Below are positions 6,535-35,906 of a stretch of DNA of 35,906 nucleotides, piece after piece (within the stretch, counting starts at the first letter, position 1; the number at the start of each line of letters is the position of its first letter). This DNA comes from Lachnospiraceae bacterium (GTDB lineage Bacteria > Bacillota > Clostridia > Lachnospirales > Lachnospiraceae), in the NCBI GenBank assembly GCA_017938145.1, contig JAGBCB010000011.1, positions 1 to 35,906 of the forward strand, given 5' to 3'. Made by a program: the position numbers and the translations under genes. The notes below the pieces were generated by a model. That model was not told the DNA's origin and made no database searches. It worked only from the letters and a program-made list of their open reading frames with translations.

Positions 6535-6535
6535 T

Positions 6536-14649: not shown

Positions 14650-14715
14650 GATAATCCTCCTTGTTTCCTTACAAATTCGTTAGTAATATTTTGTGGGTAT
14701 CCACCCTTGATACTA

Positions 14716-14744: not shown

Positions 14745-14760
14745 ATTAATAAATATTAAT
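14745..14760. promoter_or_regulatory. Palindrome in the purL-lysR intergenic region, candidate LysR-type site
   Basis: ATTAATA-AA-TATTAAT, a perfect 7-2-7 inverted repeat in the 173-bp gap between divergent purL and the LysR gene. Relative to the candidate purL start it falls at about -36 to -51. An ATTATAAT at 14784-14791 could serve as the -10 of the LysR gene. Confidence 0.5.
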
Positions 14761-14822
14761 GCTTTTATTATTTTCACTTATGTATTATAATAAAAGCAGA
14801 CTAAAACTAAAAGGAGGCCCCC

Positions 14823-18845: not shown

Positions 18846-18858
18846 TTCTTTTGCCTCC

Positions 18859-20178: not shown

Positions 20179-20488
20179 TTTTTCTTTCCAATACGGTAAT
20201 ATCCGGCATGAGGTTTTCAGCAAACACCTCGTATCTTACAAGATATCTGGATTCATCAATCTGGATTCCGTAGTGTTCCTTCATATAATCTACATCCGGC
20301 GGATAAATTCCCTCCGTAGCATAGCAAGTTACCGCACATCTCTGTAATGCCTGTTCCAGCTGCTTTTTTCCTTCTTCTCCGTTACCTGTTTTCAGGTTGT
20401 TAAGTGCCGTCATAAAAACAAGCAGAACAACTACCGCCAAAACCGGAAACAGAATTCCTCCAAGGCCACTGCGTATTTTTTCTTTCAT
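20168..20488 (-). CDS. Small membrane-anchored pilus-cluster protein, 106 residues
   Basis: An N-terminal segment (GILFPVLAVVVLLVFMTAL, about residues 11-29) is followed by a soluble domain rich in Lys/Glu with two cysteines (RCAVTCYATEGIYPP). The GIYPPDVDYM stretch is reminiscent of the conserved region of major and minor type IV pilins. I chose the ATG at 20488; an upstream TTG at 20500 would overlap pilC more. It directly follows pilC, so this may be the nearest thing to a main pilin in the cluster. Confidence 0.7.
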   Translation of the reverse strand: MKEKIRSGLGGILFPVLAVVVLLVFMTALNNLKTGNGEEGKKQLEQALQRCAVTCYATEGIYPPDVDYMKEHYGIQIDESRYLVRYEVFAENLMPDITVLERKNEE

Positions 20489-20492
20489 ATTA

Positions 20493-21533
20493 TCACCCAA
20501 TTGCTTCCATAATGTTCATTAGTGGCAGCATTACAGAAAGTAAAATAATCCCCACAAGAACCGATGTAATCAGAACCAACGTCGGCTCCAGTTTTTCCAC
20601 TTTGGAAGTCAGCGCTGCATCTGCTTCTTCAGACAAACGGTCGGCAATTTCCACCATAACCGCATCCCCGTTACCACTCTGCGTTCCAAGGCTTAACAGC
20701 CGGCACATAGCCGGCGGAAATACATCCGCTTTTTTTAATGCATCTGCCAGAGGAATACCGCTGAGCAGTTCTTCTTTACAATTTAAGCAACGATCTCTTG
20801 CCTCAGGAACATCACTTAACACCTCTGCTGCCAATTCCATAGTTTCCTCTAACGGAAGACCACTGGAAAGTCCCATGGAAATCGCCTGGGCAAAGCTGGC
20901 ATCATTCATTTTTCGCATAATACCCTTATCACCGGCTTTTTTGCGCCAAAATGCCATAACCTTCTCCCTGAAAACTGCACTGGCAGAAAAAGCGATTACC
21001 AGCCCTACCGCCACTGCAATCAGTACAAGAAGCACCGGCATAGCCTTATTCAATAAAGAACCAAGGGTTAACAGACCACCTGCAACACCTCCCAGTTCTC
21101 CGCCCAGGGAAACGAATACCGACTGAAAAATCGGCAACACCTGGGTTAACAAAACAACAATCACAATCAACATTAACAATAAAAGAATAGACGGATACAT
21201 CAGCGCTCCGCGGATACGGTTATTCATTCTGTCCCGTTCTTCGTAATATCTTGTTAAGGCATGCAGTGCCTCTTCCAAACGTCCTGCGCTTTCACCTACA
21301 TTCAGGATGCCCTGCACATAAACAGGAAAGCAACCTGCATTTTTAATTATTTCCGATAAATAGATTCCGTCATATGCCTGCTCTGCCATAGTCTCCAAAC
21401 ATGCCTTCCAGGCTTCTTCTTTTTCCTCTTCGGCCAGTAAATGTAAACCGTCTCCTATTCTGACACCGGAGTGCACAAGCCATGCCAGCTCCTGGCAGAA
21501 AGAAGCTATTTCCTTATAATTTAACATTCTCAT
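20493..21533 (-). CDS. pilC: Type IV pilus inner-membrane platform protein, PilC/GspF family
   Basis: Polytopic membrane protein that couples the pilus ATPases to subunit assembly. The 346 residues hold two GspF-type domains. The first starts with ASFCQELAWLVHSGVRIGDGL and VGESAGRLEEALHAL. The second has DASFAQAISMGLSSGLPLEE, given as two pieces of the GspF pattern, and LSLGTQSGNGDAVMVEIADR. Hydrophobic segments lie near 110-135, 162-186 and 315-340. It is slightly shorter than typical PilC, with a reduced N-terminus. GGAG lies upstream of the ATG. It is 14 bp downstream of the transglutaminase-like gene. Confidence 0.9.
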   Translation of the reverse strand: MRMLNYKEIASFCQELAWLVHSGVRIGDGLHLLAEEEKEEAWKACLETMAEQAYDGIYLSEIIKNAGCFPVYVQGILNVGESAGRLEEALHALTRYYEERDRMNNRIRGALMYPSILLLLMLIVIVVLLTQVLPIFQSVFVSLGGELGGVAGGLLTLGSLLNKAMPVLLVLIAVAVGLVIAFSASAVFREKVMAFWRKKAGDKGIMRKMNDASFAQAISMGLSSGLPLEETMELAAEVLSDVPEARDRCLNCKEELLSGIPLADALKKADVFPPAMCRLLSLGTQSGNGDAVMVEIADRLSEEADAALTSKVEKLEPTLVLITSVLVGIILLSVMLPLMNIMEAIG

Positions 21534-21547
21534 AAGTGCGCTCCTTT

Positions 21548-22570
21548 TTAGTAAATGTATTTTTCTGTATAGTTAGAACCGTCTCCGATATATTTCATAA
21601 TAGCGTCACTCTTATTGCTGGAAGAAGCAAAGGTTGGATCCATACGCTTCCAGGTGGTTCCGTCAAAGTAGATGGCATTGTCAATCCAGCCGTCCTTTAC
21701 TGTATATACACTAATCCAGGCATGGTAAACATCTCCTGCATAGCCAACCACCAGTTTACAAGGAACCGACTGGCTTCTTAACATTCCCGTCATAAGGGCA
21801 GCGTAATCAAAGCAGATTCCCTTCTTTACTTTTAAAACCTCGTCAAGCACCGGAAGATACCCGCTTTTAACATTAGCAGCAAGTTCTGTATCATAGGATA
21901 TATTTTTTACCACATATTCATAAACAGCCTGTACCTTATCCAGCTCTGTTTCCTTACCCTGGGTAAGCTTTGCACCAAGTTTTATGGTTTCCTCTGCCAC
22001 GCCGTAATCCACATACTGGTTTGGACGTAAAAACGGTGCAAATTCATCCTTTAAGCCCACTGTTGTACTTACAGAAACGACCGTAGCATATTGCTTTCCT
22101 TCCACATTTTCAAAAACAGTAATTTTGTAATCACCATTTCCGTCCGACATCGGGAAGGTTTCCCATTCTTCCGGCTGAATCGTATAAGTATATGTAGTAG
22201 TCGGTCCTTTTACCTGAGCCTTTAGTTTTTTGTCGGTGGCAGTTTTATACTTTACCATAACATAACCGTCTGTGATATTGGAATAATCAATCACTGCTTT
22301 GTCGTTTTCTTCCGCTGCCGTACCCGGTGCTTCCGGTTCCAGAATGTCCGGAATTGCCGGCTCTGCTGCCAAAATCTCCTGCTCCGAATCCACCTTACCA
22401 ATTACGGTTTCGTCCACAAAAGGAGTAACTGCACCCGGTACAGATTCATCTGCCAATGAAGTTCCCGTTGGTGTCGGAACTTCTGTATTCGCTTTTCCTG
22501 AACTGCAACCCGATAAAACAAGCATACCTATTACCGCATACAAAAAATGCTTTTTATACAATTCGTTCAC
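21548..22570 (-). CDS. Transglutaminase-like lipoprotein
   Basis: A 340-residue predicted surface lipoprotein with a signal peptide ending in LVLSGCSS and a Pro/Thr/Glu-rich linker of about 60 residues. A C-terminal transglutaminase-like cysteine protease fold has the triad Cys in KGICFDYAAL, His in VYHAWISV and Asp in RMDPTF. The middle part (about 95-200) looks like a small beta domain. Such proteins act as peptidases or amidases rather than crosslinkers, and the substrate is unknown. It lies 2 bp after the response-regulator gene and 14 bp before pilC, so it is probably cotranscribed with both and may act at the wall where the pilus crosses. Confidence 0.85.
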   Translation of the reverse strand: MNELYKKHFLYAVIGMLVLSGCSSGKANTEVPTPTGTSLADESVPGAVTPFVDETVIGKVDSEQEILAAEPAIPDILEPEAPGTAAEENDKAVIDYSNITDGYVMVKYKTATDKKLKAQVKGPTTTYTYTIQPEEWETFPMSDGNGDYKITVFENVEGKQYATVVSVSTTVGLKDEFAPFLRPNQYVDYGVAEETIKLGAKLTQGKETELDKVQAVYEYVVKNISYDTELAANVKSGYLPVLDEVLKVKKGICFDYAALMTGMLRSQSVPCKLVVGYAGDVYHAWISVYTVKDGWIDNAIYFDGTTWKRMDPTFASSSNKSDAIMKYIGDGSNYTEKYIY

Positions 22571-22572
22571 CT

Positions 22573-24135
22573 CTATTCCTGATTATCCAGCTTCTTTCTG
22601 TATTCCGCTGGACTTTCACTCACATACTTTTTAAACTTCTTATGGAAATAGTCTACATTCTTATAACCGACCATTTCCGCAATTTCATACACCTTATGTT
22701 TGTTTTCCACCAAAAGTTCAATGGCATGCTTGATACGCACCTGGTCAACATAGGAGTTAAAGCTTTCGCCTACATTTTTGTTAAAAATTTTACCAAGGTA
22801 AGAGCTGTTATACCCGAACAGTGCCGCAATTCCCTCCAGCTTAATATTGGCCGCATAATTGTGTTCAATATAATATAAAATATCGTCCAGCACACTGTCC
22901 CTGGAAGAATTACCGGTGGCACTCATTACCATTTCAAACTGCTCGGCAAAATAATCGGTAATCTCATACAAATACGGCTGTGCCGTAATAAAGGCAATAA
23001 TATTCTGGTTGGAGTCAAAAGGAATACTTACTCCGTTGTACCGGTGGTTCATGGTTTCCTTTACCTGAAGATACAGGTCTGCCATAAACAATTTTACAGA
23101 AGAAATATCTGCTTCCACCTGATATAAATAATTTTCCAGTTCCCGTAAGGTTTCCTGAACCTTACGGCGGTTAAAGGTCTGCAGATAATCGGTCAATTTA
23201 GTACAATATTCTTCCACTAAAGATGCTTTCAGTAACTGCTTTTCTCTTTCTACATCAGGCAGCTCCAGGAAGCCCAGTACATGCTGACCCTTCTGGCAGA
23301 AAAAACGCCTTCCGAGAAGCATTGCCGCCTGCTCATAGGAAATTTTCAACTCTCTGATATCGGTTACAGGACATCCGTAAGAAATAAACAACGTATCCAG
23401 TGGACTGCCCTTTTGCGGCGCAGACTCATAATGCTTTAGGAAACGCTGGAACTTATCAATGGCAAACTGTCCTTTTAACAACAGCACATTTTTAGAATTT
23501 ATCACAAAATGCTCAAAGGAATTACTGCCGGAATCCGCCACCATAAACATATCCGCAAACTGATACGGAAGTTCCATTTCGCCTATCTGGAAGTTTTCAT
23601 ACATCACCACCTGATACACTTCTGCTTCCAACTTAAGCTCAGTCAAGTTCAACAATTCAAAACGGACGTTATCTAAAACAATATCCTGTAAAATTTCTTT
23701 TTTTGATTTTCTGCGGAAGAATTCATCATCTTCCTTCTTCTGCCTGGCATCCTGAATCGCATCGTATACTTCCCGTGCAACTTTTTCCAGTTCATCTTCG
23801 TCCATTGGCTTGGTCAGATAATATTTTACACCAAACTTCATGGCAGTCTGGGCATATTTGAAATCGGAATAACCGCTTAATACAACAAAGGTTCCGTGAA
23901 AGCCCTGCTGTCTTGCCTGTTCAATTACCTCTAACCCGTAGAGCTTTGGCATACGGATATCCATGAGTACCAAAGACGGATTTAAACGCAAAATATCCTT
24001 TAAGGCATCTTCACCGTTACCGGCTTCTCCGCAAACGGTAAAGCCTATCTCTTCCCAATCAATAATACACTTTAACCCTTCTCTGATATTTGCCTCATCA
24101 TCCGCAATAAATACGGTTTCCATGATTTCTTTCAT
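22573..24135 (-). CDS. YesN-like response regulator with AraC-type DNA-binding domain
   Basis: A 520-residue two-component regulator. The receiver domain shows the acidic pocket ADDE (11-14), the phospho-acceptor Asp59 in LVLMDIRMP, and Lys109 in YLTKP. A long middle region of about 270 residues joins it to two C-terminal AraC helix-turn-helix motifs (LEGIAALFGYNSSYLGKIF and VYEIAEMVGYKNVDYFHKKF). I chose the ATG at 24135, with GGGAG 8 nt upstream; a GTG at 24144 is also possible. The usual partner histidine kinase (YesM type) is not in the window, so it is an orphan or acts with a distant kinase. It heads the unit leading to the pilus genes, while lying beside a sugar-uptake operon whose regulators are normally of this type. 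Confidence 0.9.
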   Translation of the reverse strand: MKEIMETVFIADDEANIREGLKCIIDWEEIGFTVCGEAGNGEDALKDILRLNPSLVLMDIRMPKLYGLEVIEQARQQGFHGTFVVLSGYSDFKYAQTAMKFGVKYYLTKPMDEDELEKVAREVYDAIQDARQKKEDDEFFRRKSKKEILQDIVLDNVRFELLNLTELKLEAEVYQVVMYENFQIGEMELPYQFADMFMVADSGSNSFEHFVINSKNVLLLKGQFAIDKFQRFLKHYESAPQKGSPLDTLFISYGCPVTDIRELKISYEQAAMLLGRRFFCQKGQHVLGFLELPDVEREKQLLKASLVEEYCTKLTDYLQTFNRRKVQETLRELENYLYQVEADISSVKLFMADLYLQVKETMNHRYNGVSIPFDSNQNIIAFITAQPYLYEITDYFAEQFEMVMSATGNSSRDSVLDDILYYIEHNYAANIKLEGIAALFGYNSSYLGKIFNKNVGESFNSYVDQVRIKHAIELLVENKHKVYEIAEMVGYKNVDYFHKKFKKYVSESPAEYRKKLDNQE

Positions 24136-24178
24136 ATTGTCCACTCCCGAAAAATTGCATACTTTTCCTTAATATATT

Positions 24179-24357: not shown

Positions 24358-27048
24358 TTATTCTGCAGTAATCTTAATCTTCGCCTTACCTCTCTGCTCA
24401 CCCATAGCGGTGATGGTGGTTTTTCCTGCCTTAATGCAGGTTACTTTAACAGTAACAATACCTGCTTCCGGTAATCTTCCTGTTACATCAACCACTGCTA
24501 CAGAGCTGTCATCAGACATAAACGCAACCTTTTCGGTGGTTTCGCCCGGCTCTACGGTAATGGTGAATTCTCTTGTTTCACCCACTGCCATGGTCGCTTC
24601 CGTTTCAGTCGCCTTGATGGAAGTAATCGGTACGGTTTCCACAACCTCTGTGGATTCAAATACCAGATTAGAAATTGTAAAGGTAACTTCAATACGCTTT
24701 GGTTCCGGATGTCCCGCAATATTCAGGGAATAATCGGTGTTTGCGGTAACACCTTCTACCGCAGAACCGTCCCAGGCATTCATTGGGTCACCGGTATCTA
24801 AAGTACCTGCCTTTAAGGCAGTCTTTGGTGCCGTCTGGGTTACCTTGAGTTCTTCTCCGTCTACCACAACCTTGTCGTACATAATATCACAGGTTGCTGC
24901 CTCGGTTTTGGTCTTTACTGCTGTTGTTACCAGATAGTCCTTAATATACAAAGAACCAATGCCCGCCAGACTGGTTACGCCTGCCGCCTTTGCCGCATCG
25001 GAAAGATCTGTAGCTGCATCAATTACTACGGTATACTGACCGTTTTCGGTAATTGTGGTTACAGGTCCTACATCATTGCCGTAATAGTTGTGAACACCAT
25101 CAGTAAAGTAAGCATTTAATGCTACCTGAATTTCTCCGCTGGAAGATACCGCAGATACTTTGATTTTCACACTACGGTTAAGACCTGTGGAGGACTGGAT
25201 AATTACATAAGCAATACCTGCGCCGTGGGCAGTTACCTCACCGAATTCATTTACAGTACAAATATCTTCATTGGTTGACACGTAAGTAAAGAACGCATCA
25301 GTATTTTCCGGTTCCATGGTTGCCTGAAGGTTTGCATGGGAACCCTGCGGAATGGTAACCGTAGTCTGCGGAACCACAATCTTTGTACATGGATTCTCGG
25401 ATGTCTGACCAAGTACGGTAACCATAATGGAGGCTTCTGCATCTCCCATCAGGGAGCAGGCAGTAATGGTTACCACACCCATACTCTTGCCATGAATCAT
25501 GCCATTGTAAACTGTTGCCACATCCGGATTAGAAGTCTTCCAAACAACGATGTCATTACAATCCTCCGGAAGCTTCTGCGCGTCTACATGAACATATTCT
25601 CCTGCTTCCAGGAAAATTCCGTCCGGATACTGGGACTTTGTGTCCAAGGCAATACTTGTCATCGGAATCAGTTCCGGTTCCTTTGTAATATCAGCAAGAC
25701 CCGCATAGTTTAAGTTAAAGCCGCGCATAATGCCGTAGGTTACTTCCGGATACATCAATTCGTAAGTATCACGGCGGATAAGTGTAAAGCAAAAATCTGC
25801 CTTGTCAGCGTCTTCATGGTTGAAGGCACCTGCATCCCACCATACCGGAACAATACCAATCTTTTTACACATATGATTGACTGCTTCCGCATAATAGGCA
25901 CGTTCTGTAGTGTTATTTTTATCAATAGCACCGTACTCACCTAAAATTACAGGATAACCTGCATCAACGAAGCGGGAAAGCTTCTGCATATTTGCTTCCA
26001 GATTCTTTGCAGATATCTCACTGTAGGTACGGTTGGTCATGTTTTCGGCAAGACCGAATAACCAGTCATAGTCATGGACGGCAAGGAACAGACTGCCCGC
26101 TTCGTCCTTTGGCATTTCAAAGCCGTAGGCTTCCTTGGTAGTATTCACAATATTGGTATATCTGCCCGGCACGGATAACCAGCGTTTTGCATTGTTGCTG
26201 CCGGTAGCACGCACGGTATCCACGAAAATCTGGTTTAACTGCATGATAACCTGCATGTCCTTTTTAATTCCTGCATCGGTATTATCCGGACCAACCACTT
26301 CGTTCATGGCTTCAAAAATCAGGTGCTCATCATAATCTTTAAAGCGTTCTGCGATTGTTTTCCAAACCCCTGCAAACTTTTCTTTTACAGGGCCTAAATC
26401 TGTGGCACCTACACGCAGCCAGCCGGTCTGCTCAGCACCGTCATGATGAATATTGATGATACAGTACATATCCTGGGAAACACAGTAATCTACAATTTCC
26501 TGTACTCTGGACATCCACTGCTCATTGATAGCATATCCGTTTTCATCATCAATCATGTTGCCCCAGGTAATCGGTACACGCACTGTATTAAAACCTGCAT
26601 CATGAACTGCGGTAATTAATTCCTTTGTTGTTACATATGGCTGCCACAGAGTCTCTAACGGAGTAAACCCGGTATGACCGTCCATGGTATTACCCAGATT
26701 CCAACCGGTACCCATTTCTGCTACAATTTCGTCGGCGGTCAAAGTGCGGAACGGTTCTGTACCGCTTGCAACCGGCGTTTCCGTAGGAACAGGAGTTGCT
26801 GTTGGTTCCGGTGTCGGAGTAGGCTCCGGTGTTGGTGTCGCAGTCGGCGCTACAGTTGCTGTTGGTTCAGCTGTTGGTGTTGCCGGCGCTTCTGTTGGGG
26901 CAGCGGTTGGTTCAACCGCTTCGGTAGCTGTTGGAGCTACTGTAGGGGTTGCCTCCGGTGTAGTAGTCTTATCGCCACAGGCTGTCATGGATAGTACCAT
27001 TGTAGCACTAAGCAGCAATGCTAATCCTCTTTTTTTCCAAACTTTCAT
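24358..27048 (-). CDS. GH5 beta-glucanase lipoprotein with Ig-like domains and a C-terminal binding-like module
   Basis: A surface endo-glycanase, most likely acting on cellulose, mixed-linkage glucan or mannan. The 896 residues run in this order. A lipoprotein signal ends in SMTACG (Cys24). A Pro/Thr/Glu linker spans about 28-96. The GH5 domain (about 101-445) shows GTGWNLGNTMD, His201-His202, the acid/base Glu250 in EAMNEV, and the nucleophile Glu371 in VILGEYGA. Two bacterial Ig-like (Big_2) domains follow at about 463-546 and 556-632. A beta-rich module (about 636-800) resembles the repeats of the surface protein at 32246-35563. A third Ig-like domain ends the protein. It is 2 bp downstream of the YesL-like gene. 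Its place in an uptake operon supports a role in external degradation. Confidence 0.92.
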   Translation of the reverse strand: MKVWKKRGLALLLSATMVLSMTACGDKTTTPEATPTVAPTATEAVEPTAAPTEAPATPTAEPTATVAPTATPTPEPTPTPEPTATPVPTETPVASGTEPFRTLTADEIVAEMGTGWNLGNTMDGHTGFTPLETLWQPYVTTKELITAVHDAGFNTVRVPITWGNMIDDENGYAINEQWMSRVQEIVDYCVSQDMYCIINIHHDGAEQTGWLRVGATDLGPVKEKFAGVWKTIAERFKDYDEHLIFEAMNEVVGPDNTDAGIKKDMQVIMQLNQIFVDTVRATGSNNAKRWLSVPGRYTNIVNTTKEAYGFEMPKDEAGSLFLAVHDYDWLFGLAENMTNRTYSEISAKNLEANMQKLSRFVDAGYPVILGEYGAIDKNNTTERAYYAEAVNHMCKKIGIVPVWWDAGAFNHEDADKADFCFTLIRRDTYELMYPEVTYGIMRGFNLNYAGLADITKEPELIPMTSIALDTKSQYPDGIFLEAGEYVHVDAQKLPEDCNDIVVWKTSNPDVATVYNGMIHGKSMGVVTITACSLMGDAEASIMVTVLGQTSENPCTKIVVPQTTVTIPQGSHANLQATMEPENTDAFFTYVSTNEDICTVNEFGEVTAHGAGIAYVIIQSSTGLNRSVKIKVSAVSSSGEIQVALNAYFTDGVHNYYGNDVGPVTTITENGQYTVVIDAATDLSDAAKAAGVTSLAGIGSLYIKDYLVTTAVKTKTEAATCDIMYDKVVVDGEELKVTQTAPKTALKAGTLDTGDPMNAWDGSAVEGVTANTDYSLNIAGHPEPKRIEVTFTISNLVFESTEVVETVPITSIKATETEATMAVGETREFTITVEPGETTEKVAFMSDDSSVAVVDVTGRLPEAGIVTVKVTCIKAGKTTITAMGEQRGKAKIKITAE

Positions 27049-27050
27049 AG

Positions 27051-27671
27051 TTAACCTTCCTTTGATTTTCTTTCAATATCTCTAAAGATATACATCGCAG
27101 GACCGCTGATGGTCAAAAAGATAACCGCAGGACCAATCAGCAGACCCAAAAACATGGTTGTTGTATTAAAGATAAAGACAATTATTTCGACTGCAACTAC
27201 TACTGCAATCATTACCGTTCTGCCGAAATATTTTACACTGATGTCCATGGAATTTTTTAAGGTTTTCAGCAAAGTATTATCATACCGTGCCATAAGTGCA
27301 TAGGCATAAATAAAGTAGCCGAAGCACATAACACTTCCCACAATTCCGAGAATTAAAAAGTAAATCGGATTGCCTTCCACCGCATGGAATAACTGAAAAT
27401 CCAAATATAAGGCATACACAAAAAACAAGTTGAGCAGTCCTGCCGGAATTCCCTGCTTCAAATTTGCTTTAAAGGCAGTCCAAAATTGTTTTGCAATATA
27501 CCCTTCCCTTTCATCTACCATTCTAAGCGTGATAGAAAAGGCTGCTGCCGTGGAGGCACCGATGGTTACCACCGGCAGGGAAAACAAAAACCAGAGAACA
27601 TTCAGTTTTATCATATCTAACAAACGGCTGAAAAAATTGTACAACGGTCCGTCTATACTAAAAAGCTTCAT
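27051..27671 (-). CDS. YesL-like (DUF624) membrane protein
   Basis: A 206-residue polytopic protein with about five membrane segments. The start, LFSIDGPLYNFFSRLLDMIKLNVLWFLFSLPVVTIGAST (given as MKLFSIDGPLYNFFSRLLD and LNVLWFLFSLPVVTIGAS), is typical of DUF624/YesL proteins. These are encoded with LplB/YtcP-type sugar permeases and glycan hydrolases in Firmicutes, but have no proven biochemical role. It lies after the terminator that follows the binding protein gene and 2 bp before the GH5 gene. Expression may depend on read-through of that terminator; no promoter is clear in the gap. Confidence 0.85.
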   Translation of the reverse strand: MKLFSIDGPLYNFFSRLLDMIKLNVLWFLFSLPVVTIGASTAAAFSITLRMVDEREGYIAKQFWTAFKANLKQGIPAGLLNLFFVYALYLDFQLFHAVEGNPIYFLILGIVGSVMCFGYFIYAYALMARYDNTLLKTLKNSMDISVKYFGRTVMIAVVVAVEIIVFIFNTTTMFLGLLIGPAVIFLTISGPAMYIFRDIERKSKEG

Positions 27672-27689
27672 AACTATTTCACCCTGTCT

Positions 27690-27730
27690 TTATAAAAAGG
27701 GGCTGGCACCTGTGCGCCGCCCCTTTTTTT
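27690..27730 (-). terminator. Terminator between the binding protein gene and the YesL-like gene
   Basis: GGGGC and GCCCC form a stem with an imperfect inner helix (GGCGCA...TGCC), followed on the minus strand by TTTTTAT. It lies 15 bp after the binding protein stop. It probably makes the binding protein more abundant than the genes behind it. Confidence 0.75.
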
Positions 27731-27744
27731 GATTATTATATCTT

Positions 27745-29532
27745 TTACTGTCTTGTAGCCTCTTCTAACTGATGACGGAGTGCTGCGTTTTCTTCACACC
27801 ACTTGATACACTCTTCGTAACCATATGCCTTGGCATCGTTAATCATCTTCTTAAGAAGCATATTGAACTGACCATCGGATGTGGAATAGATACAGTTCCA
27901 GGAACCGGTGGTAATACAATTGGTTACCTGATTCCAAATAACTTCCAGTTCATCGCTCTTAGCAGTTTCGGAATATGTAGTAGCAGGAGCAACCTTATAG
28001 TTCTTGGACTTTAAGTATTCATTTGGTCTTACTGCACCGGTGTAATCTCTCCAATCCTGCTGCATTGCACAGGAAGCCTCTGTTACATTGCTCTTCCAAG
28101 CTTCCCAGTTATAGGTTTCGCCGTTGGAATCCGGATTCATGGCATTTCTGGACCATGTAATGTTGTTCATCTGCTGACGTCCGTCGTTGTAGGAGAATCC
28201 AGCGTATTCACCTTCCATCATGATTTCACCGGAGGTAACACACTTCTTACCATACTCTGTTAAGTAAGTATTACCTTCTGCGTCATAATCCCAAATTAAG
28301 CCCTTAGGACCGTATTCGGACTCTAAGTAACCTTCCGGAGTGGATAACCAGTTGAGAATTTCCATGCAAAGCTCCGGATACTGGCTGTTTGCACCGATTG
28401 CCCAAACTCTGTTACCGCCGTATGGGCTTAAACCGTAAACGATTGGGGAGGCTCCTTCCGGAAGCATAGTTGTCATATATTTATTTGCTGCCAGATGTTC
28501 TTCTGTGTTGTATGCTGCACTACCTGCATAATTGAAAATAGAGAAGAATACACCACCTGCAATTACCTTGGATGCCATCTCGTCATAAGTCTGGGTCATG
28601 GAGTCCGGATCAAGTAAACCTTCACGGTATAACTTGTTGAAGAATTTTAACATTTCAATGTATGGACCTTCTTCATCCAGAGCGCCATAGAACTTACCGT
28701 TATCACAGTCATAAAGACCCAAATGGAATTCATCGTAACCATACCAGGCAGTAGCCATAGACTTAACATACATTACCATGTTGCCATCCCAGTCAGGCCA
28801 TAAGGACATAGCGTAGGTTTCCTTGCCGTTATCGTCGGTTGGGCAAATAGCCTTCATATCCTTGAATAAAGTAACCATATCATCTAAAGTCTTTACTACC
28901 GGATAACCTAACTGCTTATATAAATCCCAACGAAGGTCCCAGGTATAGAAGAATTCTTCAATACTGCCTGCATCTGCCTTGGCAACACCGTGACCAAAGC
29001 CCAGAATTTTATTCTTTCCTGCAATATCATTATTTAAGCTTCTGTTTGCCTCTAATGCGATGCCCATGTTTTCCTTGATGTACGGACCATACTCGGCAAG
29101 TAAATCATCTTCTTCCCAGTCGAAGAGCATGTCGTTTGCAACGGCTCTCTTGTAATCTGCACCGGTACTACCGAATACTACGATATCACCTAAATTACCG
29201 GATTCCATACGGGTATCAAATACACCGTCGGAGTCAGGGATAATCATTAACTTAACGTTAAACTTATCTAACATAAGCTTAGCAAACCAACCTACCTGTT
29301 CGCCGGAGAAGTTTGCTAACTGGCTGTATACAGTAAGCTCGATTGGCTCACCTCTGTCATCTTTTTTATCTGTTGTTCCTGCGGAATCTCCGCCATTGTT
29401 TGTGCCGCTCTCGCCCGGTGCGGATGTTGGGTTATTGCCCTTGTTTTCATCCTTGCTGCCACAGGATACCATAGAAAATACCATGGTAGCTGCAATGAGC
29501 ATAGCAAGCACTCTTTTCCATAAATGCTTCAT
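27745..29532 (-). CDS. ABC transporter substrate-binding lipoprotein (oligosaccharide type)
   Basis: Extracellular solute-binding protein of 595 residues with a lipoprotein signal (FSMVSCGS, Cys24) and a Gly/Ser/Asn-rich linker (about 25-60). Two alpha/beta lobes follow, of the size used by oligosaccharide-binding family members next to LplB/YtcP permeases. Aromatic residues that could stack on sugars are frequent (for example WYGYDEFHLGLYD and WEAWKSN). It follows two permease genes, from which it is separated by 78 bp with a small hairpin, and is followed by a terminator, so it is likely the most abundant product. AAAGGAGG lies before the ATG. The substrate is inferred from the neighbouring GH5 enzyme to be an oligosaccharide from plant beta-glycan. 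Confidence 0.9.
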   Translation of the reverse strand: MKHLWKRVLAMLIAATMVFSMVSCGSKDENKGNNPTSAPGESGTNNGGDSAGTTDKKDDRGEPIELTVYSQLANFSGEQVGWFAKLMLDKFNVKLMIIPDSDGVFDTRMESGNLGDIVVFGSTGADYKRAVANDMLFDWEEDDLLAEYGPYIKENMGIALEANRSLNNDIAGKNKILGFGHGVAKADAGSIEEFFYTWDLRWDLYKQLGYPVVKTLDDMVTLFKDMKAICPTDDNGKETYAMSLWPDWDGNMVMYVKSMATAWYGYDEFHLGLYDCDNGKFYGALDEEGPYIEMLKFFNKLYREGLLDPDSMTQTYDEMASKVIAGGVFFSIFNYAGSAAYNTEEHLAANKYMTTMLPEGASPIVYGLSPYGGNRVWAIGANSQYPELCMEILNWLSTPEGYLESEYGPKGLIWDYDAEGNTYLTEYGKKCVTSGEIMMEGEYAGFSYNDGRQQMNNITWSRNAMNPDSNGETYNWEAWKSNVTEASCAMQQDWRDYTGAVRPNEYLKSKNYKVAPATTYSETAKSDELEVIWNQVTNCITTGSWNCIYSTSDGQFNMLLKKMINDAKAYGYEECIKWCEENAALRHQLEEATRQ

Positions 29533-29580
29533 GTTTCAAATCCTCCTTTAAATTCACAGAAATTTTGTTTCTGTATTTCA

Positions 29581-29600
29581 ACAGGCCTCCTCCGACCTGT
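29581..29600 (-). repeat. Small hairpin before the binding protein gene
   Basis: ACAGG and CCTGT frame a 10-nt loop in the 78-bp gap between the permease and the binding protein genes. There is no T-run, so it is not a terminator. It may be a decay barrier that raises expression of the downstream gene. Confidence 0.35.
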
Positions 29601-29610
29601 AAAAATCACA

Positions 29611-30582
29611 TTAACCCTTAACCGCACCTAACATAATACCCTTTTCAAAGTAACGCTGCATGAATGGATATACCGCTAAGATTGGAATAACCGTTACCAT
29701 GGAGATGGTATACTTGATGGTTTTTGCATCCATAACCGATGCCATTGCACTTGCCGCCTGGCTGCTGCTGACACCACCCTGCATAATATTTGCCAAGCTG
29801 GTGGTCTGGTTCAAATAGATATACAGTCTGTGCTGCAAGGTCTGTAATTCCGGTGTACCACTCATGTAAAGAATGGAGTCCATGAAGGAGTTCCAGTGTC
29901 CAACCGCACCAAAGATAGCAATGGTTGCGAGAATCGGTTTACTGAGCGGCCAGATAATATTGCGGAAAATCTTCATGTGGCTGGCACCATCGATGAAGGC
30001 ACTTTCCTCCAGCTCTGCCGGAATGGATTCTATGTAGGTTTTTACCAGAATAATATTGTACGGCTGAACGATAGCCGGAATAATATATACCAGGTAATTT
30101 TCGGTTAAGCCTAACATTAAGAAGTTTAAGTAGGTAGGCACCAGACCTGCGTTAAAATACATAGTAATCACGAGGAAACGGTACCAGATTTTTCTGTGCC
30201 ACATTTCCTGCTTTGTCATAAGATAACCTGCCAACGCAGATACCACAACCATCAGTGCCGTACCGATAACCGTTCTGGATGCGGAAACCAAAAAGGCATC
30301 CAATATTTCGCCTGCATTCAGCAGTGATAAATAGTTCTGGAAATGAATTCCTTTCGGGATAAAGTTAATTGCACCGATTCTTACCAGGGAATTATCTGAA
30401 ATGGTGTTAATAAACAGATAATAAAACGGGAAGATACAGCTTATGGTAAATATTCCGAAGAAAGCATAGTTGAGGATATTAAATATCACATCACCAACGG
30501 TTAATTTCTGCTTTTTCTTATGAGTTTTATAATACTGCTTTTCAGCTTTTAAATCAAGTTTTTCCTGTTTTGTCTTTGCCAT
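29611..30582 (-). CDS. ABC transporter permease, YtcP/LplC-like
   Basis: A 323-residue inner-membrane permease with six hydrophobic segments after a lysine-rich cytoplasmic start. The coupling EAA loop is visible as ELEESAFIDGASHMKIFRNI (about residues 190-210), the interaction site for the ATPase. It is the second membrane subunit of the heterodimer and is 16 bp downstream of the larger permease gene. No ATP-binding subunit is encoded here, as is usual for this family, which shares an MsmX/UgpC-type ATPase. It would import oligosaccharides delivered by the lipoprotein encoded next. Confidence 0.9.
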   Translation of the reverse strand: MAKTKQEKLDLKAEKQYYKTHKKKQKLTVGDVIFNILNYAFFGIFTISCIFPFYYLFINTISDNSLVRIGAINFIPKGIHFQNYLSLLNAGEILDAFLVSASRTVIGTALMVVVSALAGYLMTKQEMWHRKIWYRFLVITMYFNAGLVPTYLNFLMLGLTENYLVYIIPAIVQPYNIILVKTYIESIPAELEESAFIDGASHMKIFRNIIWPLSKPILATIAIFGAVGHWNSFMDSILYMSGTPELQTLQHRLYIYLNQTTSLANIMQGGVSSSQAASAMASVMDAKTIKYTISMVTVIPILAVYPFMQRYFEKGIMLGAVKG

Positions 30583-30597
30583 AGCTTCTCACCTCCA

Positions 30598-32049
30598 CTA
30601 CATAATACTTTCGCCACGGATGGCCTTGGAAACACCGTTTGCCAGGAACAACAGGGTAACACTGACAAGGGTCTTTACCATACCTACTACAGTGGACAGA
30701 GGAACTAAGCCTTTACCGATACCGATTTTGTAAACATACAAATCAAGCACTTCAATATCGACAGCATTCTTTGCATTTTCAAATACTAAGTACTGGTCCA
30801 TACCGTTACTTAAAATATTGGCAACGGACATCAGCAGTAATACGCAGAAGGTTGGGATTAAGCCCGGTACCGTAATATGCCACATCTTCTGGAAACGGCC
30901 TGCACCGTCTACGGTAGCTGCTTCGTATAACTGCTGGTCGATACCGGAAATGCCGGAGATATAAATGATGGCACTCCAACCGGTACCCTTCCACATTCCC
31001 CAGGCTAACATTTTAAACCATGTTCCGGACTCACCAAGCAGATAGTTTGTTGTATGTGCGGTGCCGGTAATATCTGTTAAAAAGTTATTTACGAAACCTT
31101 CGGTGGAAAAAATCGCAAAGGCAATGGCATATACCAATACCCAGCTGATAAAGTTTGGAATGGTAGTGAAGGTCTGTACAATACGACGGAACCAGCCACA
31201 CCTTATTTCGGTAAGGAAAATAGCAAATGCCATCGGAACCCAGCTGGTTGCAATACCGAGACCACTCATGATTAAAGTATTTTTTAATACTCTCATGATA
31301 TCGCCTCTGGTTGCTTCGTTTTGGAACAGGAAGGTAAACCACTTAAAGCCCACGAATTTATCCATGGTAAGTGTTTCGCCTGCCTTGTAATCGAAGAATG
31401 CGTATCTCCATCCCCAAAGCGGCAAATAAGAGAATACAAATACGAAGGCAATAATCGGAACAAACATTAAGAACAGCTTCATCGGTGTTTTGATTTCGCA
31501 CTGCTCGCCCTTTTCCGGTCTTGGCTGGAACAGAATAATTACAATGTTTGCTACCACTAAAACAACGGCTAGTGCCGTAAAAATATACATGCCGTTCGGC
31601 AATATGTTATATACCTTATCCGGTCTGGAAGAACCGCCAAATTTTTCATATGCCTTATACATGATAACCATGCCACCGCCCATAACAACAGAGCCTGCAA
31701 GACCAAACCAGTTACTGATTCTCTTTAGCTTTAAGTTACCGACAGACATACAGCCTGCCACAGCACCAAGTAATATGCCAAGGCATACAATTGCCGCAGC
31801 TACCATCAGCATGATGAAACTGCTCTTGTCTACCCAGCCCTTATCCAAAGGTCTCATGGCCTGGGTTGTAAGGGAATCATAAGAAATTGCCGTAGTAAAC
31901 AGTGACAGATTCTTATTGATTAAGTTACATACATAACCCGGATTTGCAGCCGGAAAGAACATCATCATGAGTCCCAAAATCGTACCGAATCTTGTAACAT
32001 AATAGACCTTGTCGGTCCATCCATTACCTTGTACTTTCTTTTTTTTCAT
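30598..32049 (-). CDS. ABC transporter permease, LplB-like, with extra N-terminal membrane domain
   Basis: A 483-residue permease, against about 300-320 for usual LplB-type members. The canonical part begins near residue 187 (TPMKLFLMFVPIIAFVFVFS), and the EAA loop reads DQQLYEAATVDGAGRFQKMW (about 365-385). The first 180 or so residues add four membrane segments (about 20-38, 79-100, 112-130 and 150-172) not present in typical LplB. AAGGAGG lies before the ATG. It heads the transport unit. The added domain could be regulatory or a membrane interaction surface; I cannot assign it. The permease and its partner together should form the channel. Confidence 0.9.
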   Translation of the reverse strand: MKKKKVQGNGWTDKVYYVTRFGTILGLMMMFFPAANPGYVCNLINKNLSLFTTAISYDSLTTQAMRPLDKGWVDKSSFIMLMVAAAIVCLGILLGAVAGCMSVGNLKLKRISNWFGLAGSVVMGGGMVIMYKAYEKFGGSSRPDKVYNILPNGMYIFTALAVVLVVANIVIILFQPRPEKGEQCEIKTPMKLFLMFVPIIAFVFVFSYLPLWGWRYAFFDYKAGETLTMDKFVGFKWFTFLFQNEATRGDIMRVLKNTLIMSGLGIATSWVPMAFAIFLTEIRCGWFRRIVQTFTTIPNFISWVLVYAIAFAIFSTEGFVNNFLTDITGTAHTTNYLLGESGTWFKMLAWGMWKGTGWSAIIYISGISGIDQQLYEAATVDGAGRFQKMWHITVPGLIPTFCVLLLMSVANILSNGMDQYLVFENAKNAVDIEVLDLYVYKIGIGKGLVPLSTVVGMVKTLVSVTLLFLANGVSKAIRGESIM

Positions 32050-32125
32050 AATAGCCTCCTTGTTTCTTGTGCCCTATTCTGTTGCTTATAAGGCTTCAAA
32101 GACATCCTCTTTGTTTTATGAGGTT

Positions 32126-32154
32126 ATTATACTCTTTTCAAGTCCTAAAGAATA
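32126..32154 (-). promoter_or_regulatory. Candidate promoter of the transport operon, weak -35
   Basis: A perfect TATAAT (32126-32131 on the minus strand) with only TATTCT at the -35 position, 17 bp away. This is consistent with a promoter that needs an activator such as an AraC-type regulator. The leader is about 70 nt. The remaining bases of 32050-32245 hold the terminator below and no gene. Confidence 0.4.
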
Positions 32155-32179
32155 CCGTAAATACTTGTGACAAAATACA

Positions 32180-32218
32180 GTAAAAAAAAGACTCCCGGTA
32201 GTATTTTTACTACCGGGA
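32180..32218 (-). terminator. Terminator of the surface protein gene
   Basis: TCCCGGTAGTA and TACTACCGGGA form an 11-bp stem with a 4-nt loop, followed on the minus strand by a run of eight T. It lies about 28 bp after the stop codon and separates the surface protein transcript from the transport operon. Confidence 0.9.
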
Positions 32219-32245
32219 ATCTCTAATTTTTACGCTTATCTGCGA

Positions 32246-35200
32246 CTACTTTTTCTTCTTCATTACTACGAAAGCCGCGCCTGCTGCTACTGCGATTACT
32301 GCTACAACAATAACTGCGATAACAACCGGAGACATGCCGCCTTCTGCATCAGCATCTACGTCAGCAGGTGCTTCTGTAGGAGCTGCAGTTGGTTCAGGAG
32401 CTTCTGTTGCTGCAGGAGCCTCTGTAGGAGTTGCAGTTGGTTCAGGAGCTTCTGTTGGAGCTACGGTTGGTTCAGGAGTTGGTTCCGGAGTTGGCTCTGG
32501 AGTAACTTCTGCTGCCTTGTCGTAGTTGAAACCGGAAACGTCAAAGGTAATCTTTACGTTGCTCTTTGGAAGCATACCGGCCATGTTGTAAGTATTTGTG
32601 ATATCCTTATTCCAAATATTGATGAAGAGAAGCTTCATAACTTCCTTGGAATCACCGTCAAGGAATGCTTCGTCAAATTCCATAACGTTCTTGCCGTCGA
32701 AATCAACCTTAACGTTAGAGAATACGATTTCGCCGGACTTAGGAATGTCTGTGGAGATGAATAACAGGTTCAGTGCTTCGGAACCATCATCCCATGCGAG
32801 GTCATTAATCTCTAAAGTATAAGTACCGTTACCTGCAATCACTGCATCCTTAAAGGTACCTGCTTTCTTAGTAACAGACTGGTCTGTTTCAATGAAGCTC
32901 ATCTGACCGAATACATCCGGATTGGTATCTCTACCGTAAGTTGCATCATCCCATGCGTTACGGAAGGTGTACATACCGGACTGGATACCTACATATGCAT
33001 TGTATGTACCGTCGAGGTCAGCAAAAATCTGTGGCGCTTCTTCCTTTGGTTCTGCATAAATAGCATCTAAAGTGATGGTATACTCGATGGTTGTGAAACC
33101 TTCTAATAAAGTACCGTCCATACACTTTGCATTGTCTGCACCCCATTCATTGTAACCACCGCCTAAACGAAGAGTTCTTGTTACAGGGTGATCTTCTGTA
33201 CCTTCGTACCAGGCAAGAGCTGCTGTCTTATTTAAAGTAATCTTATCAGTTACATCAACACCGTCAATAGCAACCTTGTCGATGGTGTACAATACATTGT
33301 ATAAACCTTCGCCATCTGCTGCTTCCGGAAGAACTAAGGTAGGAGCCATCCACCAGGTGTGATGAACAGGACTTGGATAGGTAAGGCTAAGTGTTACGGT
33401 ATCGCCGGACTTAACAGTTACTACGTTACCGGTAATTGCTGCATTATCGGTAGAACCGTTTGCCCATGTCCAGTCCCATGCATCCTTTGCACTTTCAGCA
33501 GTACCGGCAAGGAACATGGTAGCTTCACCATTGTATAATTCACCTTCTACCTGACCTGTAATAACATCGCCAAGTGTAATGGTGTACATAATTTCATTGT
33601 AATTCTGTGGACTTGCAATGTACTGATTTGCCCACTCATTATATCCACCCTTTAAACGGATAGCCTGTGTTTCAGTCCAGTCAGCAGTACCTTCATACCA
33701 GAATTCATCAGTACCGATAGTCATATCAGGAACAACTTCCAGACCATCAATAGTAATCTTGTCAATAGTATAATCCAGTGTAGTAACTGTTCCGGCAGAA
33801 GCATCATTCAGCACTACTACAGGAGCAAGCCACCATGTGTAAAGAACCGGATCAGGGAAGCTGAGACCAATCGTGATAGTATCACCGGATTTTGCATTTG
33901 TTACCATAGTAGGTACAATACCAGCTACGTCTGTGGAACCGTTAGCATATGTAGCATCCCATGCACCGGAAGCACTTACGTCACCCTGCATAGCAAGGAA
34001 TACAGTCATATCGCCTTCATACTTTGTACCGCCAATTAACCCTTTGGCAGGACCTGCTTCGCCTTCTTCATAAGTAAATGTTACATAGAAAGTTTCTACA
34101 GGTGTATCAAATAATGCCTTATCAAGCGGAGTTGGTGTGCAATCTGCCACATTTCCTTCCTTAACATGAGCATCATCCGGAAGTGCGGTTACCCACTCAT
34201 TATAGAGATTTGTTCTTGTTACAATCTTATCATCACTGCTTGTATACGCATTTCCAACTTCTACTTTTTCACCATTAATCTCTACAGAGTTTACGGTCAT
34301 ATAGTAGCCAGGATATGCCAGTTCACCGATATCAACCATAGCAGCAGCAAATGCAAGACCTGTAACGGAACCATTTGCAGTGCCGGTAAAATCAAGACCT
34401 ACTGTATACTGGCCAGGGCCGTCTACAACAGCGCTAACAACCTTTAATCCATTGGTTAATGTTGCAGGATCTTCGCCCCAGTACTGAACACTCCATGCAC
34501 TATCTGCAAATGCAAGATATGCATTTGTCATTTTTACTGTAAATGTTACATAAATTGTTTCTACATTCTTTAATGTTTCTGCACTAACAGGAGTTGGTGT
34601 ACATCCATCTAAAGAACCGGTTGCAGTACGTGCATCCTCAGGAAGTTCTGTTACCCAGGAATTATAAAGATTACTTCTGGTAACAATTGCATCGTCACTG
34701 CTTGTATATGGTGTGTCAAATTCAACAGCCGCACCGTTTACGAGAATTTCATCAATAACAATGATACTGTTTGGATAAACAAGCTCTGCTCTGTCTATCA
34801 TCAGACCGGCAAAAGCAACTTCCGGTGCCATACCACCTGCTGCTCCTGTAAAATCAAGACCTACTGTATACTGACCAGGTCCGGTTACAACCGTATTGGT
34901 AGGAACCACACCGTTTGTCAATGTAGCAGGATCTTCACCCCAGTACTGAACAGCCCATGCACTGTCTGCATATGCAAGATATGCAGTTGTCATCTTAACT
35001 GTAAATGTTACATAAATTGTTTCTACATTCTTTAATGTCTCTGCACTAACAGGAGTTGGTGTGCATCCGTCTAAAGAACCGGATGCAGTACGTGCATCCT
35101 CAGGAAGTTCTGTTACCCACGCATTGTATAAATTACTTCTTGTTGTAATTCCGTCGTCACTGCTTGTATATGGTGTGCCGATTTCCACTGCAGTACCATT

Positions 35201-35563
35201 AACCTTAACTTCATCAATCACAAGAATACTACCAGGGAATACAAGTTCTGCCTGATCTAACATTACTCCTGCAAAAGCAACTTCCGGTGCAACACCACCG
35301 GCTGCACCCGTAAAATCAAGTCCTACTGTATACTGACCAGGTCCGGTTACTTCGGTATTTGTAGGAACTACACCATTTGTTAATGTTGTCGGATCCTCAC
35401 CCCAGTACTGAACAGCCCACGCACTATCTGCATATGCAAGATATGCCTTTACGGACTTTTCGTCTGCCTTAACTTCCTTTGCAGGTGCGGCAGCTGCTGT
35501 CATAGCAAAAACCATCACGAATGCAAGAAGTCCGGCAAAAAATTTCTTTACTGTCTTACTCAT
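32246..35563 (-). CDS. Large multidomain cell-surface protein, predicted glycan-binding scaffold
   Basis: A secreted, wall-side protein of 1105 residues. A signal peptide (about 1-28, AMTAAAAPA cleavage region) is followed by six tandem beta-rich modules: three close copies (38-192, 193-346, 347-498), two related modules (517-668, 673-834) and a diverged sixth (847-1018). A linker of Pro/Thr/Glu repeats (about 1020-1075) and a C-terminal membrane helix with a KKKK tail follow. There is no LPXTG motif, so anchoring is by this helix. Shared features include YLAYADSAWAVQYWGED in modules 1 and 2, TWW-AP and WYEGT in modules 4 and 5, and GPGQYTVGLDF. Exposed aromatics suggest carbohydrate binding. 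A related module sits in the GH5 lipoprotein. I do not recognise a named family. GAGGAGG lies before the ATG. Confidence 0.85.
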   Translation of the reverse strand: MSKTVKKFFAGLLAFVMVFAMTAAAAPAKEVKADEKSVKAYLAYADSAWAVQYWGEDPTTLTNGVVPTNTEVTGPGQYTVGLDFTGAAGGVAPEVAFAGVMLDQAELVFPGSILVIDEVKVNGTAVEIGTPYTSSDDGITTRSNLYNAWVTELPEDARTASGSLDGCTPTPVSAETLKNVETIYVTFTVKMTTAYLAYADSAWAVQYWGEDPATLTNGVVPTNTVVTGPGQYTVGLDFTGAAGGMAPEVAFAGLMIDRAELVYPNSIIVIDEILVNGAAVEFDTPYTSSDDAIVTRSNLYNSWVTELPEDARTATGSLDGCTPTPVSAETLKNVETIYVTFTVKMTNAYLAFADSAWSVQYWGEDPATLTNGLKVVSAVVDGPGQYTVGLDFTGTANGSVTGLAFAAAMVDIGELAYPGYYMTVNSVEINGEKVEVGNAYTSSDDKIVTRTNLYNEWVTALPDDAHVKEGNVADCTPTPLDKALFDTPVETFYVTFTYEEGEAGPAKGLIGGTKYEGDMTVFLAMQGDVSASGAWDATYANGSTDVAGIVPTMVTNAKSGDTITIGLSFPDPVLYTWWLAPVVVLNDASAGTVTTLDYTIDKITIDGLEVVPDMTIGTDEFWYEGTADWTETQAIRLKGGYNEWANQYIASPQNYNEIMYTITLGDVITGQVEGELYNGEATMFLAGTAESAKDAWDWTWANGSTDNAAITGNVVTVKSGDTVTLSLTYPSPVHHTWWMAPTLVLPEAADGEGLYNVLYTIDKVAIDGVDVTDKITLNKTAALAWYEGTEDHPVTRTLRLGGGYNEWGADNAKCMDGTLLEGFTTIEYTITLDAIYAEPKEEAPQIFADLDGTYNAYVGIQSGMYTFRNAWDDATYGRDTNPDVFGQMSFIETDQSVTKKAGTFKDAVIAGNGTYTLEINDLAWDDGSEALNLLFISTDIPKSGEIVFSNVKVDFDGKNVMEFDEAFLDGDSKEVMKLLFINIWNKDITNTYNMAGMLPKSNVKITFDVSGFNYDKAAEVTPEPTPEPTPEPTVAPTEAPEPTATPTEAPAATEAPEPTAAPTEAPADVDADAEGGMSPVVIAVIVVAVIAVAAGAAFVVMKKKK
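33062..34015 (-). repeat. Modules 4 and 5 of the surface protein
   Basis: Module 4 is at 33560-34015 and module 5 at 33062-33547. They share WDATYANGSTD/WDWTWANGSTD, TIGLSFPDPV/TLSLTYPSPV, YTWWLAP/HTWWMAP, YTIDKITIDG/YTIDKVAIDG and GGYNEWAN/GGYNEWGA. They differ from modules 1-3 in length and in the aromatic cluster, so they may recognise a different sugar. Confidence 0.85.
34070..35452 (-). repeat. Modules 1-3 of the surface protein, recent tandem duplication
   Basis: Module 1 is at 34988-35452, module 2 at 34526-34987 and module 3 at 34070-34525. Modules 1 and 2 are close to identical over long stretches, including at silent positions (for example the segment coding for TLKNVETIYVTFTVKM). 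Module 3 has the same plan with more changes. The pattern fits recent duplication with unequal recombination. Confidence 0.9.
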
Positions 35564-35760
35564 TTTCGTCCTCCTCTATAAATGTTTTTTTCGTATGGAA
35601 GCCCATGGATATACCATGCCTCCCGTACCATACAGTTGTATTTTATAACAAAAGAAGGGCAAAAAACATATTATCTTTTATACAGTTTTTACAGGAAAAA
35701 TTAGAGTTCTTATTCTGACAGGTCAGATTTTTACAGTAATAATTCGACAAGAGCCCGTCC
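35564..35760 (-). promoter_or_regulatory. Leader and upstream region of the surface protein gene
   Basis: No gene is seen in 35564-35776. A hairpin with outer arms GTATGG (35593-35598) and CCATAC (35628-35633) and inner arms CATGG/CCATG lies in the expected 5' leader. A TATAAA/TAAAAT-type -10 (around 35640-35647) is the best promoter candidate, with a poor -35. Further upstream, TCTGAC-AG-GTCAGA (35714-35727) is a perfect 6-2-6 palindrome that could be an operator. Confidence 0.4.
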
Positions 35761-35776
35761 GAATCCTGATATGATT

Positions 35777-35819
35777 CCCCTTAAGTAGACAAGGTAAATA
35801 ACCAAATCTACTTAAGGGG
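35777..35819 (+). repeat. 13-bp inverted repeat before the transposase gene
   Basis: CCCCTTAAGTAGA (35777-35789) and TCTACTTAAGGGG (35807-35819) form a perfect hairpin with a 17-nt loop, followed by GATTTTTT. It is the kind of structure found inside IS ends that blocks read-through transcription into the transposase gene. The IS end itself lies close upstream, probably around 35760-35770. Confidence 0.7.
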
Positions 35820-35827
35820 GATTTTTT

Positions 35828-35906
35828 ATGTATCGAAAATATACGCCAGAGGAAAAAATAAAAATTGTCAGGGGATATATAAAGGGCGAATACTCTTGGA
35901 GTGAAA
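35828..35906 (+). CDS. IS3-like transposase OrfA, N-terminal fragment cut by the window edge
   Basis: The reading starts at the ATG at 35828 and runs to the window end (26 codons). It reads as MYRKYTPEEKIKIVRGYIKG followed by EYSWSE. This matches the start of the helix-turn-helix OrfA protein of IS3/IS150-type elements (K-Y-T/S-PEEK pattern). The second frame and the right end are outside the window. It marks insertion activity next to the surface protein gene. Confidence 0.75.
   Translation, partial: MYRKYTPEEKIKIVRGYIKGEYSWSE

Follow-up and report, generated by a model that had tools for sequence, protein, structure and literature searches.

What does a large surface protein without any enzymatic domain do next to a sugar importer? 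This question is raised by the 35,906-nucleotide contig JAGBCB010000011.1 of a Lachnospiraceae bacterium (assembly GCA_017938145.1), which was analysed at full length and is called the window here. It is contig C59 of a genome of 3.24 Mb that was assembled into 72 contigs and is 78% complete. Its minus strand encodes between positions 22573 and 35563, in the order of transcription, a surface protein of 1105 amino acids (aa), two permeases of an ATP-binding cassette (ABC) transporter, a large binding lipoprotein, a DUF624 protein, a lipoprotein of glycoside hydrolase (GH) family 5 and an AraC-type response regulator. A preceding interpretation made without database searches (the sequence-only reading) had assembled the surface protein, the permeases, the binding lipoprotein, a YesL-like protein and the GH5 lipoprotein into one locus, and all of them are indeed present on one strand at the positions then given. 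We consider it probable, at roughly two chances in three, that this protein is anchored in the membrane, has no catalytic role and uses its six modules to bind xyloglucan, or the beta-glucan backbone of that polymer, for hand-over to the GH5 enzyme and the importer. Established parts of this reading are the architecture of the protein, the common ancestry of the modules, their occurrence in GH5 and GH29 enzymes as well, the position beside the importer in many loci and a set of neighbouring enzymes compatible with xyloglucan; that the modules bind glycan, that the ligand is xyloglucan and that it passes from the surface protein via the enzyme to the importer is what we infer.

Neither Pfam nor NCBIfam reports an enzyme domain in the surface protein, whose C-terminus is a hydrophobic stretch ending in KKKK and which carries no LPXTG motif. 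The six tandem modules recognized previously are confirmed, and pairwise comparison separates them into three classes in the order A A A B B C: the class A modules R1-R3 are 58-88% identical (88% for R1/R2, 58% for R1/R3), the class B modules R4 and R5 share 46% of their residues, and R6 stands alone as class C. As single sequences, R1, R2 and R3 show weak similarity to the module within the GH5 enzyme (class G), with scores that were reached by 4, 6 and 5 of 200 shuffled sequences, respectively. Class-pure sets of relatives (28 modules of class A, 13 each of B and C, 8 of a further class D and 7 of G) were compared by hhalign against 20 column shuffles per class pair, in which the score was at most 20. 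Six class pairs are firmly linked with scores of 54-96 (A-D 98.6%, A-C 97.7%, C-D 97.2%, D-G 96.2%, A-B 95.8% and A-G 95.3%) and B-D more weakly (72%, score of 36), while the remaining three of the ten pairs (B-C, B-G and C-G) show no direct link (5-18%, scores of 23-27) and are placed in the same superfamily because they are connected via A or D. Iterated module profiles absorb each other and were used for detection only, so the relationship rests on the class-pure sets; as judged from these, classes A, B, C, D and G are one superfamily of common ancestry, and the kinship of the GH5 module with the surface modules claimed by the sequence-only reading is borne out. Among the motifs then listed, G-x-YTV and a V-x-[VI][ND]G strand recur in the relatives, whereas the supposed Y-x-G-x-D start does not. 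A different signature, N-x-[W/Y], is kept at one position, where 66 of the 69 modules have N and 67 have W or Y, and represents a candidate ligand site.

The assertion that the module matches no family that could be named has withstood comparison with Pfam, NCBIfam and the PDB. In neither Pfam nor NCBIfam does any family exceed its curated cut-off (for classes B, D and G, the full proteins were scanned), and there is no convincing PDB match by sequence or profile; the best one, of class A to 7c5x (3e-4), adds up several repeats, none of which passes individually. In the relative L143, the multi-repeat score of PF14541 exceeds the cut-off, yet again no single stretch does. Matches of the surface protein to SusE, SusF or surface glycan-binding protein (SGBP) families are absent from Pfam up to an E value of 10. 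CBM65, a carbohydrate-binding module (CBM) of the same bacterial family, was considered as the identity of the module and rejected, since the profiles of A, B, C, D and G all gave less than 2% probability against it.

Matches to the surface protein as query occur in 21 of 299 genomes of the family (query genome included), and module A is found in 25 of 397 family genomes (query included) and in 2 of 398 genomes across the phylum, one of them the query. A census of the window and the stretches L039-L069 and L120-L154, which had been chosen by module or CBM65 matches, yielded 51 module-bearing proteins: 28 GH5 enzymes (27 recognized by their similarity to the enzyme of the window and a further one, truncated at the contig end in L060, by Pfam), one GH29 enzyme and 22 proteins without enzyme match. 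Nineteen of the latter 22 end in a membrane or sortase anchor, two of these 19 with LPKTG. Class G was found in nine GH5 proteins, accompanied by A in L046, L057, L058, L064 and L152, and without A in the window, L039, L041 and L148. The surface proteins vary in architecture across genomes (AAABBC, BBBC, BBC, AAD, AAC, AC, DDDC and C). As had been proposed, the module therefore recurs both in enzymes and in an anchored protein without enzyme domain that the same loci encode. The modules are discrete non-catalytic domains within carbohydrate-active enzymes, which is one part of the definition of a CBM, and their occurrence in enzymes as well as in a stand-alone protein is the pattern of a CBM.

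Some relatives show unusual arrangements. In L062 (7775-10708), a GH29 alpha-fucosidase is fused to two B modules and a hydrophobic stretch in one protein, the gene of which sits between GH31-like and GH94-like genes. The B and C modules of L050 (8212-10219) are encoded as small proteins of their own, both of which carry an LPKTG sortase motif. In L200 (5946-9076), the surface protein is apparently split into three small module proteins before the permeases, the first two being weak matches, and a stand-alone G-module protein of 271 aa is encoded downstream (14426-15241).

The substrate is indicated by the enzymes of these loci. Among solved structures, xyloglucanases and endoglucanases of broad specificity are matched by the GH5 domain (2jep, 4e-62; 4w85, 1e-45; 6xsu, 2e-55) and likewise by that of an A-bearing relative. 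Its similarity to solved GH5_4 enzymes and its catalytic glutamates place it in subfamily GH5_4, the label GH5-4 being attached to 6xsu in the search output; the same subfamily is presumed for the other matched structures, and the motifs NE and GEYG are taken by us to be the catalytic ones. The surface-protein loci L047 and L049 each contain GH43, an A-bearing GH5, GH29, GH31, GH42 and a histidine kinase within one stretch, and L049 also GH94 (confirmed by Pfam are, for L049, GH94, GH29, GH42, GH43 and the kinase and, for L047, GH5 and GH31; the others are assigned by similarity). GH31, GH29 or GH42 were found near the importer in nine of 15 loci with the surface protein, a number that includes matches by construction, as L044, L047 and L049 supplied the seeds, and the own genome through contig C34 alone (8/15 without C34). 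They were found in none of five loci at contig ends and in none of 15 CBM65 loci, a different type of control in which the stretches span 13-20 kb. Searches of whole genomes covered GH31 in the own genome and GH29 in 12 genomes. Because enzymes of the alpha-xylosidase, fucosidase and beta-galactosidase types are among the neighbours, the substrate is likely to be xyloglucan. In 6/15 loci with the surface protein and in 0/13 without it, there is a GH5 gene in the vicinity of the importer (p 0.018), which is not used as proof: extra flanks were taken for seven surface-protein genomes, and L047 and L049 were placed to include GH5. Within about 10 kb, as read from the coordinates, the numbers are 4/15 and 0/13 (p 0.10).

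Contig C34 of the own genome carries a kinase, GH43 and an alpha-xylosidase (NCBIfam equivalog NF007940, 1234 bits at a cut-off of 606). In the relative L041 of the same genus, the surface-protein gene, a kinase in two frames and GH31 lie in this order, and the right end of the window and the left end of C34 (L160:1-180) carry inverted ends that resemble those of an insertion sequence (IS) together with the start of a transposase-like frame. Gene order and ends together suggest that an IS element split the assembly at this point, and C34 probably adjoins the window upstream of the surface-protein gene. Such an element immediately upstream of this gene may cut off transcription from further upstream.

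The link to the importer can be followed by a hydrophobic N-terminal extension of permease 1 of about 190 residues, which is missing from seven aligned shorter or unrelated homologues. Searched alone, with a profile built from permeases beside surface proteins, the extension retrieves 33 loci in 32 of 397 family genomes; 15 of these have a module surface protein directly upstream of permease 1, and five have a contig end at or near this gene. Together with L039 from another collection, the surface protein directly precedes permease 1 in 16 loci, with an 86-aa frame in one of the gaps (L146). The extended permease is present in 22 of the 25 genomes with module A, as compared to an expected 2.0, if the two samples of 397 genomes are identical, as their shared labels suggest; Fisher's test gives a p value of 2e-25 that ignores relatedness, the 25 genomes representing 22 genera. 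The importer is thus often, though not always, accompanied by the surface protein, which seems to be optional. A promoter scan of the locus was uninformative (29 found, as compared to 31.5 in shuffles).

On this basis, the surface protein would hold xyloglucan above the wall, beside the GH5_4-type endo-glucanase lipoprotein; that it does so is probable from modules common to cellulase-type enzymes and from its place next to the importer. The GH5 enzyme would cut the polymer at the surface, aided by its own related module, the large binding lipoprotein and the two permeases would take up the released oligosaccharides, and the alpha-xylosidase and other exo-enzymes would trim them in the cytoplasm, under the presumed control of the histidine kinase and the AraC-type response regulator.

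Several observations weigh against this reading. No GH31, GH29 or GH42 was detected in the examined stretches of 6/15 surface-protein loci, and these enzymes are about as frequent in loci without the surface protein (7/13), so they mark the importer family rather than the surface protein. In the own genome, GH29 was not found at E 1e-20, the assembly being 78% complete, and neither GH42 nor GH94 occurs in the window or C34, to which the search for these two was confined, with no genome-wide search made; the connection of C34 to the window depends on the relative's gene order and the IS-like ends only. As to the importer, a module protein is missing next to the extended permease in 13 of its 33 loci, which makes the surface protein look dispensable for import. 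Between the surface-protein gene and permease 1 lies a strong terminator-like hairpin with a stem of 17 pairs and a T run, so that expression of the surface protein and of the importer genes probably differs in level. Hairpins of -19.9 kcal/mol or lower occur in 13 of 15 such gaps (counted without shuffle control and leaving out L045). That the surface protein docks on the permease extension, an idea that arose from the presence of the extension in 11/11 complete permeases beside surface proteins in the initial set, was rejected as a specific link because of the same 13 of 33 loci.

GH5_4 enzymes also cut mixed-linkage glucan and cellulose, and the ligand could accordingly be another beta-glucan (cellulose, mixed-linkage glucan or glucomannan), with the locus serving general beta-glucan scavenging. 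This version, in which the modules still bind glycan, is favoured by the loci without side-chain enzymes just mentioned, by the lack of detected GH31, GH29 and GH42 in several stretches with A-bearing GH5 enzymes (e.g., L048 and L051-L056) and by GH5 matches that include a beta-1,3-1,4-glucanase and cellulases; we consider it rather unlikely, as alpha-xylosidase, fucosidase and beta-galactosidase fit the side chains of xyloglucan and are not encountered in the CBM65 control loci. The modules may also have a protein-protein or structural role without glycan contact, either docking enzymes onto the anchored protein or spanning the wall as spacers, as might be expected of repeated modules of one superfamily shared by anchored protein and secreted enzymes of the same loci. 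Speaking against it, genomes G042, G187 and G199 have module A in GH5 frames only, with no anchored partner detected, and the N-x-[W/Y] signature kept in nearly all modules fits a ligand site better than a spacer, which renders such a role improbable. Finally, an anchored, repetitive protein without enzyme domain could be a general adhesin or an S-layer-like coat protein that stands beside the importer by chance, and the two small sortase-motif relatives in L050 indeed lie in a stretch in which no importer gene was detected. The sequence-only reading had stated that a binding role would be refuted if the modules confidently matched adhesion or S-layer families; such families were looked for in Pfam and NCBIfam, and none reaches its cut-off for the surface protein or its modules. 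As module A is also common to GH5 enzymes and module B to a GH29, and as the protein precedes permease 1 in so many loci, a chance neighbour of this kind seems very improbable. Binding of xyloglucan or its backbone is therefore preferred.

SGBPs of Bacteroides are fixed to the cell by a lipid anchor, the protein described here by a C-terminal membrane anchor. It further differs from them in having no Pfam family over cut-off, in standing beside an ABC importer instead of SusCD and in sharing its modules with enzymes. Common to both are a non-catalytic nature, attachment to the surface (predicted in our case) and genes beside an endo-enzyme and an importer, as in the xyloglucan and mixed-linkage glucan loci (PMC12710961; PMC10318527). 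In its predicted way of working the surface protein is like a Bacteroides SGBP, while it is no member of that group by sequence, anchor or importer. The sequence-only reading had suggested that it would be a Gram-positive SGBP counterpart, which is supported insofar as a non-enzymatic anchored protein is encoded in enzyme loci; the 13 loci and the terminator speak against a tight unit with the importer.

Gram-positive polysaccharide utilization loci (gpPULs) are defined by a polysaccharide-degrading enzyme, a transporter and a regulator encoded together (PMC5320581), and the locus combines all of these in its GH5 enzyme of predicted activity, ABC permeases with binding protein and AraC-type regulator. 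In the literature, gpPULs are described as lacking an SGBP, often replaced by CBMs on endo-acting enzymes (PMC10318527), and no close Sus homologues were found, polysaccharide binding being expected via enzyme CBMs (PMC5320581); the locus presented here differs by its separate non-enzymatic protein. A similar known system is the xyloglucan ABC cluster of Ruminiclostridium cellulolyticum, which likewise contains two permeases and a binding protein, a sensor and an AraC-like regulator, and GH31; growth of this bacterium on xyloglucan requires the gene of the binding protein (PMC4780118). According to the accessible text, this organism imports xyloglucan oligosaccharides and trims them with GH42, GH31 and GH3 enzymes, and the polymer is degraded by cellulosomes, other than here; that text makes no mention of an anchored multi-module binding protein, and the legend to its Figure 12 lists one gene of unknown function (PMC4780118). 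In our case, the alpha-xylosidase and the kinase are on C34, which is joined to the window by inference only.

The own genome contains CBM65 (PF18259) on contig C28 alone, in a lipoprotein-like protein with three CBM65 near other ABC permeases (L120:7508-10921; relatives in L121-L123, L125-L131 and L134). Lipoprotein-like proteins with two to five tandem CBM65, mostly beside ABC permease genes, occur in 12 of the 15 CBM65 loci, and the two copies scanned in full (L120 and L122) contain no enzyme domain by Pfam. Judged by its sequence, the tandem-CBM65 protein offers another, distinct candidate for a glycan-binding protein that is not an enzyme. Sas20 of Ruminococcus bromii is not known to be tied to an importer. 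Like the role predicted here, that of Sas20 is polysaccharide binding at a Gram-positive cell surface, with starch as the ligand and the protein amylosome-borne (PMC9112005).

Whether these surface proteins constitute a dedicated Gram-positive class of SGBPs, built from one unnamed superfamily of at least five module classes that are shared with enzymes and recombined between genomes, and acting as SGBP analogue in xyloglucan-importing Lachnospiraceae, is evenly balanced in our judgement. No description of such a protein beside a xyloglucan importer was found in the titles and abstract starts searched, most subscription papers being outside this scope. If the surface proteins do bind xyloglucan, the picture of gpPULs without SGBP would be incomplete for some of the Lachnospiraceae. 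In that case, there would also be a new CBM superfamily, occurring on enzymes as well as in separate proteins, that is open to direct characterization.

Table 1. Features of the locus and its border in the window.
Feature	Position	Strand	Remarks
Surface protein	32246..35563	-	1105 aa: signal peptide, modules A A A B B C, proline/threonine (P/T)-rich linker, C-terminal membrane anchor
Module R1, class A	34988..35455	-	
Module R2, class A	34526..34993	-	85% nucleotide and 88% aa identity to R1
Module R3, class A	34064..34531	-	
Module R4, class B	33548..34033	-	
Module R5, class B	33050..33541	-	
Module R6, class C	32519..33028	-	membrane-proximal
P/T-rich linker and C-terminal membrane anchor of surface protein	32246..32518	-	
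Terminator-like hairpin	32187..32224	-	17-pair stem and T run, immediately 3' of surface-protein gene
ABC permease 1	30598..32049	-	BPD_transp_1 (Pfam)
N-terminal hydrophobic extension of permease 1	31489-32049	-	residues 1-187; not in shorter homologues
ABC permease 2	29611..30582	-	BPD_transp_1 (Pfam)
Large substrate-binding lipoprotein	27745..29532	-	595 aa; SBP_bac_1 below Pfam cut-off only
DUF624 (YesL/MusI-like) membrane protein	27051..27671	-	PF04854
GH5 (GH5_4-like) lipoprotein	24358..27048	-	896 aa; PF00150 and three Big_2 stretches
Catalytic domain of GH5 lipoprotein	25714-26751	-	approx. residues 100-445
Class G module within GH5 enzyme	24646..25146	-	residues 635-801
AraC-type response regulator	22573..24144	-	likely regulator of locus
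Probable IS-element start	35749..35906	+	ends contig upstream of surface-protein gene; matching inverted end at C34 start

The binding lipoprotein has no PDB match as a single sequence, and its profile gives weak matches to sugar-binding proteins of the PDB (best 7e-4). Immediately following the response regulator, a lipoprotein-like protein with a transglutaminase-like core is encoded at 21548-22570. The adjoining region at 17790-21533 contains a type II/IV secretion ATPase, small frames and a T2SSF protein, perhaps forming a pilus or competence cluster. Two neighbouring LicD-family genes are located at 4848-6555, the second of which overlaps its neighbour by 20 bases; they may serve surface decoration of the phosphocholine type.

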